Shown here: in pieces, positions 4,810 through 25,652 of the stretch | How positions within the stretch are numbered: the first letter of the stretch is position 1 | Layout: each line of letters starts with the position of its first letter | Notes under the pieces: generated by a model | What the model was told of the DNA's origin: nothing | What the model saw: only the letters and a program-made list of their open reading frames with translations | Database searches by the model: none | Position numbers and translations under genes: made by a program | NCBI GenBank assembly: GCA_021804825.1 | Contig: JAJZGX010000005.1 | Coordinates: 17,501-52,477, forward strand | Source of the DNA: Pseudomonadota bacterium | GTDB taxonomy: Bacteria > Pseudomonadota > Alphaproteobacteria > Rhizobiales > Beijerinckiaceae | Length of the DNA stretch: 34,977 bases | Direction: 5' to 3'

Positions 4810-5832
4810 TCAGAAACCTCGAACCCGTTTGAGCATTTGCTCGACATGGGCGATGGGGGTGGGTGGCAAAATGCCGTGACCAAGATTGAATATATGTCGA
4901 CGCCCGGCGAAAGCCTCAAGGATGATATCCACGGCGCGATCCAATGCTGCGCCGCCGGCCAGCAGCGCCAGCGGATCAAGATTGCCCTGCACGGTCACAT
5001 GCCGCGGCAAGTGCTGGCTGAGCCAAAGCGGGTCAGCCGCCGTGTCAATGCCGATGGCCTCTGCGCCCAAATTTTCTGCAAGGCCAACAACCCGCGTGCC
5101 AACGCCGCGCGGAAAGGCAATTATGGGAGTTTTGGGGTGGCGGGTGCGCAGACCGGCAATGATTCCTTGCATCGGGATTTCACACCAGGCCTCAAACTCG
5201 CCCGGTGGCAAAACTCCCGCCCAGGAATCGAAGATCTGGACGGCATCGACGCCGGCTTCAATCTGCGCATCGAGCCAATCAATCGAGGCTGCCACCAGCC
5301 GATCGATCAGTCTGGCGAACAATGCCGGCTGTTGATAGGCCAGCACCCGCGCCGGGGCCTGATCGGGCGTGCCGCGTCCTGCCACCATATAGCTTGCCAC
5401 CGTCCAAGGGGCACCGCAAAAACCAATGAGTGCCTTGTCATCGGCCAGTTCTGCACGCACCCGGCGCACGGTTTCGAGCACGGGTGCCAACCGCGTCAGA
5501 TCGAGGTGATCATGCAGGCAGGCAAGCCCGGCCTCGTCGGCTATGGGCTCAAGGCGCGGCCCCTCGCCGGTCTCGAAACTGACCCGCTGGCCCAGCGCAT
5601 CCGGCACCACCAGAATATCGCTGAACAGAATCGCGGCATCAAAGCCGAAACGCTTCACCGGCTGCAAGGTCGCCTCGGCGGCGAGGTCAGGATTGTAGCA
5701 AAAATCCAAAAATGATGGCGCTTTAGCGCGCAGAGCGCGATATTCCGGCAGGTAGCGTCCGGCTTGCCGCATCATCCATATCGGTGGCGAGGAATGACTG
5801 CGGCCCGAGAGCGTTTCAAGAAATTTCCGCAA
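4810..5832 (-). CDS. hemE: Uroporphyrinogen decarboxylase (TTG start)
   Basis: A 340-residue enzyme that decarboxylates uroporphyrinogen III to coproporphyrinogen III. The N-terminal signature PIWMMRQAGRYLPEYR (about 17-32) and FSDILVVPDALG (about 70-81, with the catalytic Asp72) are present, followed by GFCGAPWTVASYM, DSWAGVLPP and the C-terminal FNLGHGILPPTP. The frame has no ATG or GTG between its upstream stop and TTG 5830-5832, so TTG is taken as start, with a GGGGG stretch upstream. An ATG at 5834-5836 is out of frame and opens a six-codon ORF ending inside hemE. Removing one base would make that ATG the hemE start. hemJ follows 11 nt downstream, and the upstream gap is the candidate replication origin, as in other alphaproteobacteria. 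Confidence 0.95.
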   Translation of the reverse strand: MRKFLETLSGRSHSSPPIWMMRQAGRYLPEYRALRAKAPSFLDFCYNPDLAAEATLQPVKRFGFDAAILFSDILVVPDALGQRVSFETGEGPRLEPIADEAGLACLHDHLDLTRLAPVLETVRRVRAELADDKALIGFCGAPWTVASYMVAGRGTPDQAPARVLAYQQPALFARLIDRLVAASIDWLDAQIEAGVDAVQIFDSWAGVLPPGEFEAWCEIPMQGIIAGLRTRHPKTPIIAFPRGVGTRVVGLAENLGAEAIGIDTAADPLWLSQHLPRHVTVQGNLDPLALLAGGAALDRAVDIILEAFAGRRHIFNLGHGILPPTPIAHVEQMLKRVRGF

Positions 5833-5964
5833 CCATGGCCCCCGCTCTAAAAAAACTTCCTTGAATCTTTTTATTACGGACTCTTGTTAGAGCACCCTTT
5901 TGCGTTAATCCAGCCGCCTGCACAGCTTAAACAGTTTTAATGCCAGGCGGTCGCGCGGGCGAAG

Positions 5965-6011
5965 TTTTCAACATCGTGTTGACAATTTTTGAACATCAAG
6001 CAAATTCAACA
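5965..6011. repeat. Four DnaA-box-like 9-mers (NNNTNAACA)
   Basis: Plus strand: TTTTCAACA at 5965-5973, TTTTGAACA at 5987-5995 and AATTCAACA at 6003-6011. Minus strand: TTGTCAACA at 5977-5985. Start spacings are 12, 10 and 16 nt. The first and third sites in map order differ from TTWTNCACA only at position 6. The cluster overlaps the promoter at 5989-6017. Confidence 0.5.
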
Positions 6012-6017
6012 TATTAT
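5989..6017 (+). promoter_or_regulatory. Sigma-70-type promoter reading into the PPRP gene
   Basis: TTGAAC (5989-5994) and TATTAT (6012-6017) are separated by exactly 17 nt. A start near 6024 would give a leader of roughly 205 nt before the GTG at 6232. A second, perfect -35 hexamer TTGACA lies at 5979-5984, but no good -10 is paired with it. Confidence 0.6.
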
Positions 6018-6064
6018 GAGTGCGCTCGGAAAGTCTTGAACCTTGCATAAGGACTCTGACCCCA

Positions 6065-6073
6065 TAATCCACA
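6065..6073 (+). promoter_or_regulatory. Putative DnaA box
   Basis: TAATCCACA differs from the consensus TTATCCACA only at the second base. It lies inside the hemE-PPRP gap. Confidence 0.5.
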
Positions 6074-6135
6074 ATTTCCCACCGCTTCTGAAGCGTCTGA
6101 TGTCACATGGGGATGGATTGCCGCGACTATCCGCC

Positions 6136-6144
6136 TTTTGCACA
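6136..6144 (+). promoter_or_regulatory. Putative DnaA box (relaxed consensus)
   Basis: TTTTGCACA matches TTWTNCACA at all nine positions. It lies in the hemE-PPRP gap, 62 nt downstream of the TAATCCACA site. Confidence 0.45.
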
Positions 6145-6231
6145 GGGCTGGTGGCGCGCAGACCGGCTTCTCCCATCTTCCCACAAAGAGCCAGACGTGG
6201 TTTGTGAAGAGCGGGGACAAGGGGTCACAAC

Positions 6232-7065
6232 GTGAGTCGGAATTATTTTCATCTGCACCTCGTGTCGGACTCGACCGGTGAAACGCTGATCGCCATTTCG
6301 CGCGCTGTTGGGGCGCAGTTTCAGGGCATTGGTTCCATCGAACATATTTATCCGCTGGTGCGCAATAAATCCCAGCTCGAGCGGGTGTTTCGTGAAATCG
6401 AAGCCTCGCCCGGCATTGTGCTGTTCACGCTGGTTGATGCTGATTTGACGGCGCTGCTGGAGGCCGCCTGCCGCGAACTCGGCTCGCCCTGTCTCTCGGT
6501 GCTGCAACCCATCCTCGGGCTGTTCAACGCCTATCTTGGCACGGCAGCGACGCCGCGTCCGGGCGCGCAACATCTGCTGAATGCCGATTATTTCAAGCGC
6601 ATCGACGCGCTGAATTTCACCATGATGCATGATGACGGCCAACAGCACGAGCATCTCGAGGAAGCCGATATTCTTCTGCTGGGCATCAGCCGGACGTCAA
6701 AGACTCCCACCAGCATCTATCTTGCCAATCGCGGCTACAAGACGGCGAATGTGCCGCTGGTGCCCGGCGTTCCCTTGCCATCGGGCGTCACCACCGTGCG
6801 TCGGCCGCTGATTGTCGGGCTGGTGGCCTCGGCGGAGCGGATCATTCAGATCAGGCAAAATCGCTTGCTGTCGCTGAATGCCGATCATGAAACACCCTAT
6901 GTCGACCGCATGGCCGTCAATGAGGAAATCGCGCATTCGCGCCGTCTTTTTGCGGAACACGGCTGGCCGGTCATTGATGTCAGCCGCCGCTCTATCGAGG
7001 AGACGGCCGCGGCGGTGATTGATCTTTATGGCGCGCACCGCATGAAATTCATGGTGCAGGCATGA
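6232..7065 (+). CDS. PEP synthase/PPDK regulatory protein (kinase-pyrophosphorylase, DUF299)
   Basis: A 277-residue member of the DUF299/PPRP family. These bifunctional enzymes inactivate pyruvate phosphate dikinase or PEP synthase by ADP-dependent threonine phosphorylation and reactivate it by phosphate-dependent dephosphorylation. The N-terminus [13 protein letters not shown] and the P-loop [11 protein letters not shown] (151-161) with [18 protein letters not shown] are diagnostic, as is the C-terminal [16 protein letters not shown]. The start is GTG at 6232 with AAGGGG seven bases upstream. Which dikinase it controls cannot be told here. It is the first gene of a plus-strand run with maf (4-nt overlap), coaE and dnaQ, and sits next to the candidate origin as its homolog does in Caulobacter. 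Confidence 0.94.
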
Positions 7066-7682
7066 GCGGCGGGGCCTTCTGGTGCCATGACCTTCCGCTG
7101 GTTCTGGCTTCACAAAGCGCGACGCGGCGGCAGTTGCTGGAATCGGCCGGTTTGACACCGCAGGTGGTATCACCCGATGTCGATGAGCGGGCACTGGAGG
7201 CGAGCATCGCGACATCCGAGCCCGTCGCGCTCGCGAAGGGGCTCGCCAGTGCCAAGGCGGCGGAGGTCGCCGCGCGTCATCATGGGCAAATTGTGATCGG
7301 TGCCGACCAATTGCTGGTTCTGGGCGGCAAATTATTGCACAAGCCCAAAGACAGAGCGGCCGCGAAAGCGCAGCTGATGGCGCTGTCGGCGGGACATGCC
7401 CATGAACTCATTTCGGCAGTCGCGGTGTTTCGTGATGCCAAGTGCCTCTGGGTGCAGGCGAGCGTGGCGCGGCTGCGCATGCGCAAGCTGAGCCAAGCCT
7501 TCCTCGAGCTTTATCTCGACAAGGTCGGCGATCAGGCCATGCGCAGTGTCGGGGCCTATCAGATCGAGGGCTATGGCATTCAGCTGTTCGACCATATCGA
7601 AGGCGATCACGCGACCATTCTCGGGCTGCCGCTGCTGCCCTTGTTGGACTTTCTGCGCGAAGCGGGTTTCATGATGTCATGA
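7062..7682 (+). CDS. maf: Maf-family nucleotide pyrophosphatase
   Basis: A 206-residue Maf protein, a house-cleaning NTP pyrophosphatase acting on non-canonical or selected nucleotides. Visible motifs are [19 protein letters not shown] near the N-terminus, [10 protein letters not shown] (the position of the catalytic Asp), [13 protein letters not shown], and the C-terminal [19 protein letters not shown] with [11 protein letters not shown]. The GADQ form, rather than GADT, is usual for this alphaproteobacterial clade as I recall it, so I would not infer a changed substrate. ATG 7062 overlaps the PPRP stop by four bases. In many alphaproteobacteria aroE follows; here coaE follows after only 26 nt. 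Confidence 0.93.
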
Positions 7683-7708: not shown

Positions 7709-8293
7709 ATGCTGATTCTGGGGCTTACCGGTTCAATCGGCATGGGTAAATCGACGACGGCGGCGCTGTTCCGGGAAGCCGGTGTGCCGGTTCATGATTC
7801 TGATGGCGTGGTGCATCGGCTTTATGCTGGTGAAGCCGCGCCGCTGATCGAGGCGGCCTTTCCGGGCACCACGGGCCCACAGGGGGTCAACCGCACGGCA
7901 TTGGGGCAGGCGGTGCTGGGCAATTCTGCGGCATTGCGGCGTCTCGAGGCGCTGATCCACCCGCTGGTCGCAGGCCAGCGCGATTTGTTTCTGAGCGCGC
8001 AGCGCCGCAACGGCAGGGCGCTGGTCGTGCTCGACATTCCCCTGCTGTTCGAGACCGGCGGCGAAGCGCTGGTCGATGTCATCGTCGTCGTCAGTGCGCC
8101 GAAATCTGTGCAAAAGGATCGGGTCATGGCGAGGCCGGGCATGAGTTCGGCGCGGTTCGAGGCCATAATGGCGCAGCAACTCTCCGATGGTGAGAAGCGT
8201 CGCCGCGCCCATGTCGTCCTGGACACCGGGAGCGGGATTGAGCCAACCCGTCGCGCGGTGCAGAGGCTGCTGCGCGCTCTAGCCGGACAGTGA
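7709..8293 (+). CDS. coaE: Dephospho-CoA kinase
   Basis: A 194-residue kinase catalysing the last step of coenzyme A synthesis, phosphorylation of the ribose 3'-OH of dephospho-CoA. The P-loop GLTGSIGMGKST (5-16) is followed by VPVHDSDGVVHRLY, the substrate-binding HPLVAGQRD segment, and LVVLDIPLLFETG, all characteristic. Then comes VIVVVSAPKSVQKDRVMAR, the lid with its arginines. ATG 7709 has GAGGG eight bases upstream. It is separated from maf by 26 nt and from dnaQ by four, so it belongs to the PPRP-maf-coaE-dnaQ operon. Confidence 0.95.
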   Translation: MLILGLTGSIGMGKSTTAALFREAGVPVHDSDGVVHRLYAGEAAPLIEAAFPGTTGPQGVNRTALGQAVLGNSAALRRLEALIHPLVAGQRDLFLSAQRRNGRALVVLDIPLLFETGGEALVDVIVVVSAPKSVQKDRVMARPGMSSARFEAIMAQQLSDGEKRRRAHVVLDTGSGIEPTRRAVQRLLRALAGQ

Positions 8294-8297
8294 AGTC

Positions 8298-8978
8298 ATG
8301 CGTGAAATCGTGCTTGATACCGAAACCACAGGCCTCGATCCGCAGAAGGGCGACCGGCTGGTTGAAATTGGCTGTGTCGAGGTGGTCAATCTGATTGCCA
8401 CGGGCAAGACCTGGCATCGCTATTTCAATCCGCAGCGCGACATGCCTGACGGCGCGTTTCAAGTGCATGGATTGTCTGAGGAATTTCTAGCCGACAAGCC
8501 GTTGTTTGCGGCAGATTGCGATGAATTTCTGGCGTTTGTCGGCGATGCGCAGCTGGTGATCCACAATGCCGAATTCGACATGCGCTTCCTCAATGCGGAA
8601 TTGGCGCGGATCGGCAAGCCGCTTCTTGACGTGGCACGGGTCACCGACACTCTGGCTCTGGCACGCCGCCGTTTTCCGGGCATGCCCAACAATCTCGATG
8701 CGCTCAGCGCGCGGCTTGGCGTCGATACGTCGAAACGCTCCAAGCACGGGGCCTTGATCGATGCGGAAATTCTCGCGGATGTTTATGCCGAGTTGACCGG
8801 CAAGCGCCAGACGGCGCTGGGCCTGGCGAGTGTGGTTGAGGCGGCGGTGCATGTCGGCAAGACCAGACGCCGCGAGCCGCTGCCATCGCGCCTGACAGAA
8901 GCCGAGCGCGCGGCCCATGCCGCCTTTGTTGCGGAAATGGGCGAAGCTGCGCTCTGGCGGCATTATCTCGAAAAGTGA
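8298..8978 (+). CDS. dnaQ: DNA polymerase III epsilon subunit (proofreading 3'-5' exonuclease)
   Basis: A 226-residue DnaQ, the proofreading subunit of the replicative polymerase core. The DEDDh exonuclease motifs are clear: Exo I IVLDTETTGLDP (residues 4-15, metal-binding Asp and Glu), Exo II VIHNAEFDMRFLNAEL, and Exo III KHGALIDAEILADVY with the catalytic His and Asp. The remaining roughly 50 residues form the tail expected to contact the polymerase alpha subunit. Its stop codon lies inside a strong hairpin shared with convergent secB. It is the last gene of the PPRP-maf-coaE-dnaQ run. A dnaQ gene near oriC agrees with the origin assignment. Confidence 0.95.
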   Translation: MREIVLDTETTGLDPQKGDRLVEIGCVEVVNLIATGKTWHRYFNPQRDMPDGAFQVHGLSEEFLADKPLFAADCDEFLAFVGDAQLVIHNAEFDMRFLNAELARIGKPLLDVARVTDTLALARRRFPGMPNNLDALSARLGVDTSKRSKHGALIDAEILADVYAELTGKRQTALGLASVVEAAVHVGKTRRREPLPSRLTEAERAAHAAFVAEMGEAALWRHYLEK

Positions 8979-24832: not shown

Positions 24833-25652
24833 TCAAGCCTCGCTTGCCGGTGCGTTTGTTGTCGGGCTGTGCATGGCACTTCCCGCATTCGCGCTGGACG
24901 GCTCAACGACTCCGGCCAACAAGCCATTGGCGCTGCCAGGGCATTTCCGCAACAATGAAGACGCGCTCCAGCAGGGGCTGAAAGCCGATCAGGCAGGAAA
25001 TGTGCCTTTTACCCTGAAGGCTCTTGGCTATGCTGCGGCCCACGGACAATCCATCGCCCGATGGAAATTGGCGCATATGTATGCCGATGGCGAAGGCGTG
25101 GATCGGGACGATCTGAAAGCCTTTCATTATTATCGCGATATTATTACCTCTTATCGGCAAAGTGATAATGACGGGCGTGACCGCGCGGCGGTTTCAAGCG
25201 CCTATGTCGCCCTTGGGGCCTATTTGCTGCGCGGAATTCCCGGCACGAATGTCAAGCGCGACCCGCACATGGCGATGCGGATGTTTCAGGTGGCGGCGAC
25301 GGTGTTCCGCAACCCGGACGCGCAATATAATCTGGCGCAGATGTTCCTGAATGGCGAAGGCGTGGCGCATGATCCACGGCAGGCTGCCGGATGGCTCAGC
25401 CTTGCGGCGGCCAAGAACCACTGCGCAGCCCAGGCGCTTCTGGGACGAATTTTGTTCAATGGCGGCCATGATGTGGTGCGCCAGCGCGCCAAGGGCCTGA
25501 TGTGGCTGATGCTGGCACGCAAAGGCGCTATCGATCCGGTCAAGGATGGCTGGATCATCGCGCTCTATGACAAGGCCATGGCGGCGGCGTCCGATGATGA
25601 TCGCCAGGCGGCTTTGGCCTATCTTTCCGATCGCAAGCACCGCATCAATTAA
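24813..25652 (+). CDS. exoR: Exported Sel1-repeat protein, ExoR-like
   Basis: A 279-residue periplasmic Sel1-repeat protein. A signal peptide ([17 protein letters not shown], cut probably after ALPAFA at residue 27) precedes several Sel1 repeats. These include [51 protein letters not shown] and [22 protein letters not shown]. The segment [17 protein letters not shown] and the general layout closely resemble rhizobial ExoR, the periplasmic inhibitor of the ExoS/ChvG sensor kinase that restrains exopolysaccharide synthesis and promotes motility. No chvG/chvI is visible here. ATG 24813 has AGGAGA five bases upstream and lies inside ilvD. Its end overlaps convergent xthA by eight bases. The ExoR call is from recalled similarity, so the symbol is provisional. 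Confidence 0.78.

Follow-up and report, generated by a model that had tools for sequence, protein, structure and literature searches.

The chromosomal origin of Caulobacter crescentus (i.e., Cori) is flanked by hemE and COG1806 (PMC1914354), and in Hyphomonas neptunium the marker frequency peaks close to hemE (PMC6650430). In Sinorhizobium meliloti, CtrA is conserved but does not bind the origin, which lacks CtrA motifs (PMC4433202). According to a review, the origins of Caulobacter species, and possibly that of R. prowazekii, are the only ones in which CtrA sites have been seen (PMC4468827).

We analyzed a 34,977-nucleotide stretch of DNA (hereafter, the window; G000:C86:17501-52477) from a Beijerinckiaceae (Hyphomicrobiales) draft assembly of 2.78 Mb in 163 contigs. 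On the basis of sequence comparisons, the gap between hemE and the PPRP gene at positions 5833 to 6231 is very probably the chromosomal oriC. The locus and Caulobacter Cori have the same boundary genes and spacers of similar size, and both contain DnaA boxes and an AT-rich element (PMC1914354); however, Cori contains five sites for CtrA and one for IHF, while the window lacks an intact CtrA site and any IHF match. The chromosomal origin of S. meliloti shares the gene order and the lack of CtrA motifs but differs in that close relatives of the window carry a CtrA-type motif. The Rickettsiales (i.e., Wolbachia and Ehrlichia) likewise have hemE-flanked origins with reduced or absent CtrA sites while keeping CtrA (PMC1914354); these are obligate intracellular bacteria, whereas the contrast described here falls within one genus with genomes of 2.8 to 3.3 Mb. 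Hyphomonas neptunium also starts replication near hemE, with parAB approximately 7 kb from hemE (PMC6650430, PMC7200025), but CtrA binding beside its origin has been shown (PMC7200025), while the motif of the window appears decayed. Thus, the hemE-type alphaproteobacterial origin is known, and the window would add a further member; the unusual part is the putative loss of the CtrA-type site. The features of the locus are as follows.

4810 to 5832, minus strand: hemE (uroporphyrinogen decarboxylase), left boundary; TIGR01464, 392.9 bits (cut-off, 302.95)
5833 to 6231, no strand: very probable oriC, the divergent hemE/PPRP intergenic region of 399 bp; skew, boxes, and conserved spacer
5846 to 5876, plus strand: likely DNA-unwinding element; nearest-neighbour stability rank 1 (i.e., least stable) among 30-bp windows in the 35 kb
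5968 to 5983, plus strand: TCAACATCGTGTTGAC, putative decayed CtrA-type site; aligned with the TTAA-N7-TTAA of relatives, best central match with 2 mismatches
6065 to 6073, plus strand: DnaA-box-like TAATCCACA, 1 mismatch to TTATCCACA; the aligned column is box-like in relatives
6136 to 6144, plus strand: DnaA-box-like TTTTGCACA, 2 mismatches to TTATCCACA; same sequence in L002
6177 to 6185, plus strand: weak PPRP-proximal box CTTCCCACA, 3 mismatches; the column reads TTGTCCACA, CTATCCACA, or TTATCCACA in relatives
6232 to 7065, plus strand: PPRP (pyruvate, phosphate dikinase regulator; COG1806/DUF299), right boundary; NF003742, 333.6 bits
7062 to 7682, plus strand: maf; TIGR00172, above cut-off
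7709 to 8293, plus strand: coaE; TIGR00152, above cut-off
8298 to 8978, plus strand: dnaQ; TIGR01406, above cut-off

The original prediction, made from the sequence of the window, had named this gap as an oriC candidate partly because of its flanking genes. The coordinates are correct (hemE, on the minus strand, ends at 5832; PPRP, on the plus strand, starts at 6232; 399 bp lie between them), and family models confirmed all five flanking genes (i.e., hemE on one side and PPRP-maf-coaE-dnaQ on the other). Such models also identified HemJ, aroA, and cmk to the left of hemE and, after dnaQ, secB and fxsA on the minus strand, followed by Tim44, MltA, and Smr proteins. Gene arrays diverging from the gap had been described as well, and all six genes on the left face left, while the majority of those between 6.2 and 25 kb face right (exceptions, secB, fxsA, a phosphatase gene, and one unnamed ORF). 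The claim that this is the longest gap in the window probably holds: the sole longer space among the gene calls contains a His_Phos_1 gene, and a rival gap near 24.8 to 25.2 kb is possibly of similar length, the start of a Sel1 gene there being unsure. No Rfam RNAs or tRNAs were detected across the window. The PPRP protein is 97% identical to that of JAGXAM010000007.1, and the nearest named records are Hyphomicrobiales/Beijerinckiaceae metagenome-assembled genomes. Across 83 loci, the divergent hemE/PPRP spacer is kept at 336 to 676 bp; the loci of relatives were chosen by PPRP similarity, and the frequencies given here are values for this sample rather than order-wide values for the Hyphomicrobiales.

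The two box-like words that had been reported, TAATCCACA and TTTTGCACA, are present at the positions claimed for them. A further cluster of related 9-mers (5965 to 6011) stood only in part, in that TTTTCAACA (5965) and TTGTCAACA (5977, minus strand) lie within two mismatches of TTATCCACA and the other members do not. In total, the gap contains 4 sites within 2 mismatches of TTATCCACA, whereas dinucleotide shuffles predict 0.96 (P = 0.01). It holds no perfect TTATCCACA box and a single site with 1 mismatch; thus, its boxes are weak. Across the family, 98 boxes carry no more than 1 mismatch, compared with 5.9 expected (84 gaps, including one duplicate); in relatives, boxes are located most frequently 25 to 100 bp before PPRP, on both strands. 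By a simple box score, the gap was the best 400-bp window of its own 52-kb contig, and the corresponding gap was the best in 133 kb of the congener G002, in 155 kb of the congener G001 (score, 21, versus 8 for the runner-up), and in 380 kb of G011, a complete genome from the family. No rival cluster of canonical boxes was found: the 2.78-Mb assembly contains 16 exact copies of TTATNCACA, never in close pairs (the count covered canonical boxes only), and this word is rarer than its reversed control (24 occurrences). The gap of G001 (L085) has the appearance of a far stronger origin, with four boxes of at most 1 mismatch and two TTAA-N7-TTAA sites, and the origin sequence has therefore changed quickly within the genus.

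The gap had also been described as AT-rich, and its AT content is 50%, compared with 39% for the window. The likely unwinding element contains GAATCTTTTTATTA (5863 to 5876), which we take to resemble the 13-mers of the Escherichia coli oriC. Words of the GATCTT/GAATCTT/GATTCTT type are concentrated in the hemE-side 20% of the 83 spacers. Together, duplex stability, these words, and the box positions point to a layout with a melting element by hemE, a central segment, and boxes toward PPRP. No IHF site (WATCAN4TTR, at most 1 mismatch) was found in the gap, and IHF matches were not enriched in relatives (5 of 83 gaps versus 3 of 83 controls); GANTC was not enriched either, with 3 occurrences in the gap, near the approximately 1.6 expected by base count. 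Elsewhere in the window, a second very unstable AT-rich stretch lies at 25092 to 25172, near the Sel1-repeat gene with the unclear start.

The central segment is where the window departs from many of its relatives. TTAA-N7-TTAA, which is the CtrA-site consensus (PMC1914354), occurs in 33 of the 83 gaps, while each other spacing from 0 to 15 occurs in at most 2, and 22 of the 36 sites are positioned at 40 to 50% of the gap length. The alignment of relatives has a TTAAC-N6-TTAAC-like sequence in the middle of the gap, and G011 carries four TTAACN6TTAAC sites in 4.2 Mb, one of them in the hemE/PPRP gap. A central motif is present in 30 of the 83 loci, and its distribution on the PPRP tree requires at least 17 changes, compared with 24.7 for shuffled labels; therefore, the motif is clustered, yet was often gained or lost. 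TTAA-N7-TTAA is absent from the gaps of the window and of the two nearest species (L002/G002 and L003/G003), while the congener G001 retains its two copies and carries TTAACTTTTTGTTAA at the counterpart of positions 5950 to 6000. At the aligned position, TCAACATCGTGTTGAC corresponds to TTAAC-N6-TTAAC with two changes, which leave TCAAC-N6-TTGAC; it is also an inverted repeat, TCAACA-N3-TGTTGA. Positions 5965 to 5983 may thus represent a decayed CtrA site instead of, or in addition to, DnaA boxes. Since close relatives carry the CtrA-type motif, we interpret its absence from the window as a local loss, and the three-species clade of the window appears to have lost a central motif that is often seen in its relatives.

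The motif of the relatives could alternatively be a CtrA-controlled promoter element of hemE or PPRP rather than a part of origin control, in which case its loss from the clade would carry no information on replication. We regard this as somewhat unlikely. In its favour, the gap is a divergent promoter region, and promoters are the usual location of CtrA sites. Against it, seven loci in which hemE was not found (L022, L023, L024, L031, L034, L036, and L091) retain the motif 217 to 262 bp before PPRP, an arrangement that would still permit control of PPRP. In the two of these loci that were inspected (L022 and L034), hemJ and then rho are the neighbours.

The placement of the origin itself was evaluated by strand asymmetry. 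By the original prediction, a minimum of the cumulative GC skew near this gap would count as support, and such a minimum was found within the limits of a draft genome; the 163 contigs preclude a whole-chromosome skew, and the 52-kb contig was used instead. That contig has its cumulative G-C minimum at C86:24,295 (window position 6795, within PPRP, which starts at C86:23,732), at a distance of 0.56 kb from the gap; for cumulative T-A, the minimum is at C86:23,355 (window position 5855), within the gap. The left arm of this skew is thin evidence, because the 5,000 bases of C86:12,501-17,500 read N. For G002, the skew of the 133-kb contig reaches its minimum at 8,010, 0.58 kb from the PPRP start at 7,432, and then climbs steadily for 125 kb. 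In G001, the skew falls steeply along the left arm to the gap and is then nearly flat to the right, which counts against the placement. Twenty samples of the complete G011 genome (4,235,448 bp) showed the skew switching sign at approximately 650 to 840 kb and back at approximately 2.6 to 2.7 Mb, and 380 kb of contiguous sequence placed the minimum at 706,594, approximately 3 kb from the gap (PPRP, 702,575 to 703,402). For G022 and G010, the GC skew was too noisy to place an origin, and we substituted the strand bias of GGGNAGGG, an FtsK-type motif, as a strand marker. The switch in G022 fits an origin near 5.16 Mb and a terminus near 2.6 Mb (PPRP at 5.17/5.35 Mb). In G010, the switch is near 1.25 to 1.31 Mb, approximately 100 to 150 kb from hemE-PPRP (PPRP, 1.15 Mb; parB, 1.24 Mb), and this offset on G010:C1 suggests a rearrangement or a displaced origin.

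The partition gene parB is located 11 to 45 kb from PPRP in G001, G002, G011, and G022; thus, parB rather than dnaA lies near the gap. Near parB, parS-like 16-mers (TGTTTCACGTGAATCA and similar sequences) occur on the origin-proximal contigs, at 46398, 46421, and 52069 of the reversed G002 contig and at 65078 and 70821 of G001:C13. Skew by itself resolves only to a few kilobases, and the switch in G010 is nearer parB than PPRP, as would be seen if the true origin were in a neighbouring gap of the origin-proximal region (e.g., beside parAB) and the hemE gap were merely linked to it. Nevertheless, we consider this very improbable: the hemE/PPRP gap is the top box window in four of four stretches, its structure is kept in 83 loci, the Caulobacter origin has been experimentally mapped to hemE-COG1806, and the G010 offset could be explained by a later rearrangement. 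Although dnaA-linked origins are common in other phyla and the gap also has to contain the hemE and PPRP promoters, an origin at or near dnaA, with the hemE gap as merely a conserved divergent promoter region, is almost certainly wrong and was rejected on the basis of the skew and box scans, since dnaA is on a separate contig (C151) in the genome of the window, the G011 skew passes dnaA (near 535 kb, 170 kb from the minimum) without turning and turns at approximately 704 to 707 kb, the dnaA neighbourhoods of 14 genomes have zero or one near-perfect box apiece, dnaA in G010 (position 79) is within a region of steady GGGNAGGG bias rather than at a switch, and parB is closer to PPRP than dnaA.

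CtrA is encoded in the genome (G000:C122) and is 81% identical to a Caulobacter CtrA probe (used solely for the search), and its C-terminal DNA-binding domain is the same as that of relatives; a gcrA gene is also present. The DnaA domain IV motif GGRDHTTVLHAV is unchanged in the clade of the window. An altered specificity of CtrA or DnaA as the cause of the degenerate sites was therefore rejected, both the CtrA DNA-binding domain and the domain IV motif being unchanged in the clade. A CtrA-type motif, TTAACCGTTTATTAA, precedes the dnaA match by approximately 530 bp in G000:C151 (L299) and in G002 (C2:91460-91475; L296). A TTAA-N7-TTAA of this type upstream of dnaA was absent from the other genomes of the same genus and family that were checked; the more distant G054 has a similar motif at position -922 of dnaA. 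The occurrence before dnaA in G000 and G002 represents one lineage only and may be due to chance. It is conceivable, but improbable, that the origins of Beijerinckiaceae and other Hyphomicrobiales were ancestrally controlled by CtrA via one central site and that the clade of the window moved this control to the dnaA promoter. If true, such a shift from oriC to the dnaA promoter would mean that replication control was rewired naturally within a single genus.

The assignment of the gap as oriC, which bears out the original prediction, rests on its position at the turn of the skew, the excess of boxes, the low stability of the duplex, synteny, and conservation among relatives, and the parB linkage agrees with these lines of evidence. 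We have high confidence in the reading as a whole (i.e., a hemE/PPRP-type oriC with DnaA acting on degenerate boxes, melting beside hemE, and a decayed central CtrA-type site). DnaA binding, the place of melting, and initiation are inferred from the Caulobacter and E. coli models, and the effect of losing the CtrA-type site is likewise an inference. DnaA would bind the degenerate PPRP-side boxes at 6065, 6136, and 6177, melt the AT-rich element at 5846 to 5876 beside hemE, and load the replisome, and two forks would then depart along the leftward and rightward gene arrays. Because the central CtrA-type site appears decayed, the clade probably has a weaker direct CtrA block on initiation, or none.

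With the origin placed, growth rates in this group of uncultured bacteria can be estimated from coverage, and their genomes can be oriented. The presence of a CtrA-type motif at a conserved position in origins of Hyphomicrobiales conflicts with the statement of the review that CtrA sites are limited to origins of Caulobacter and, possibly, R. prowazekii (PMC4468827). Furthermore, the repeated loss of the motif supplies natural pairs for testing the purpose of direct CtrA control of initiation.
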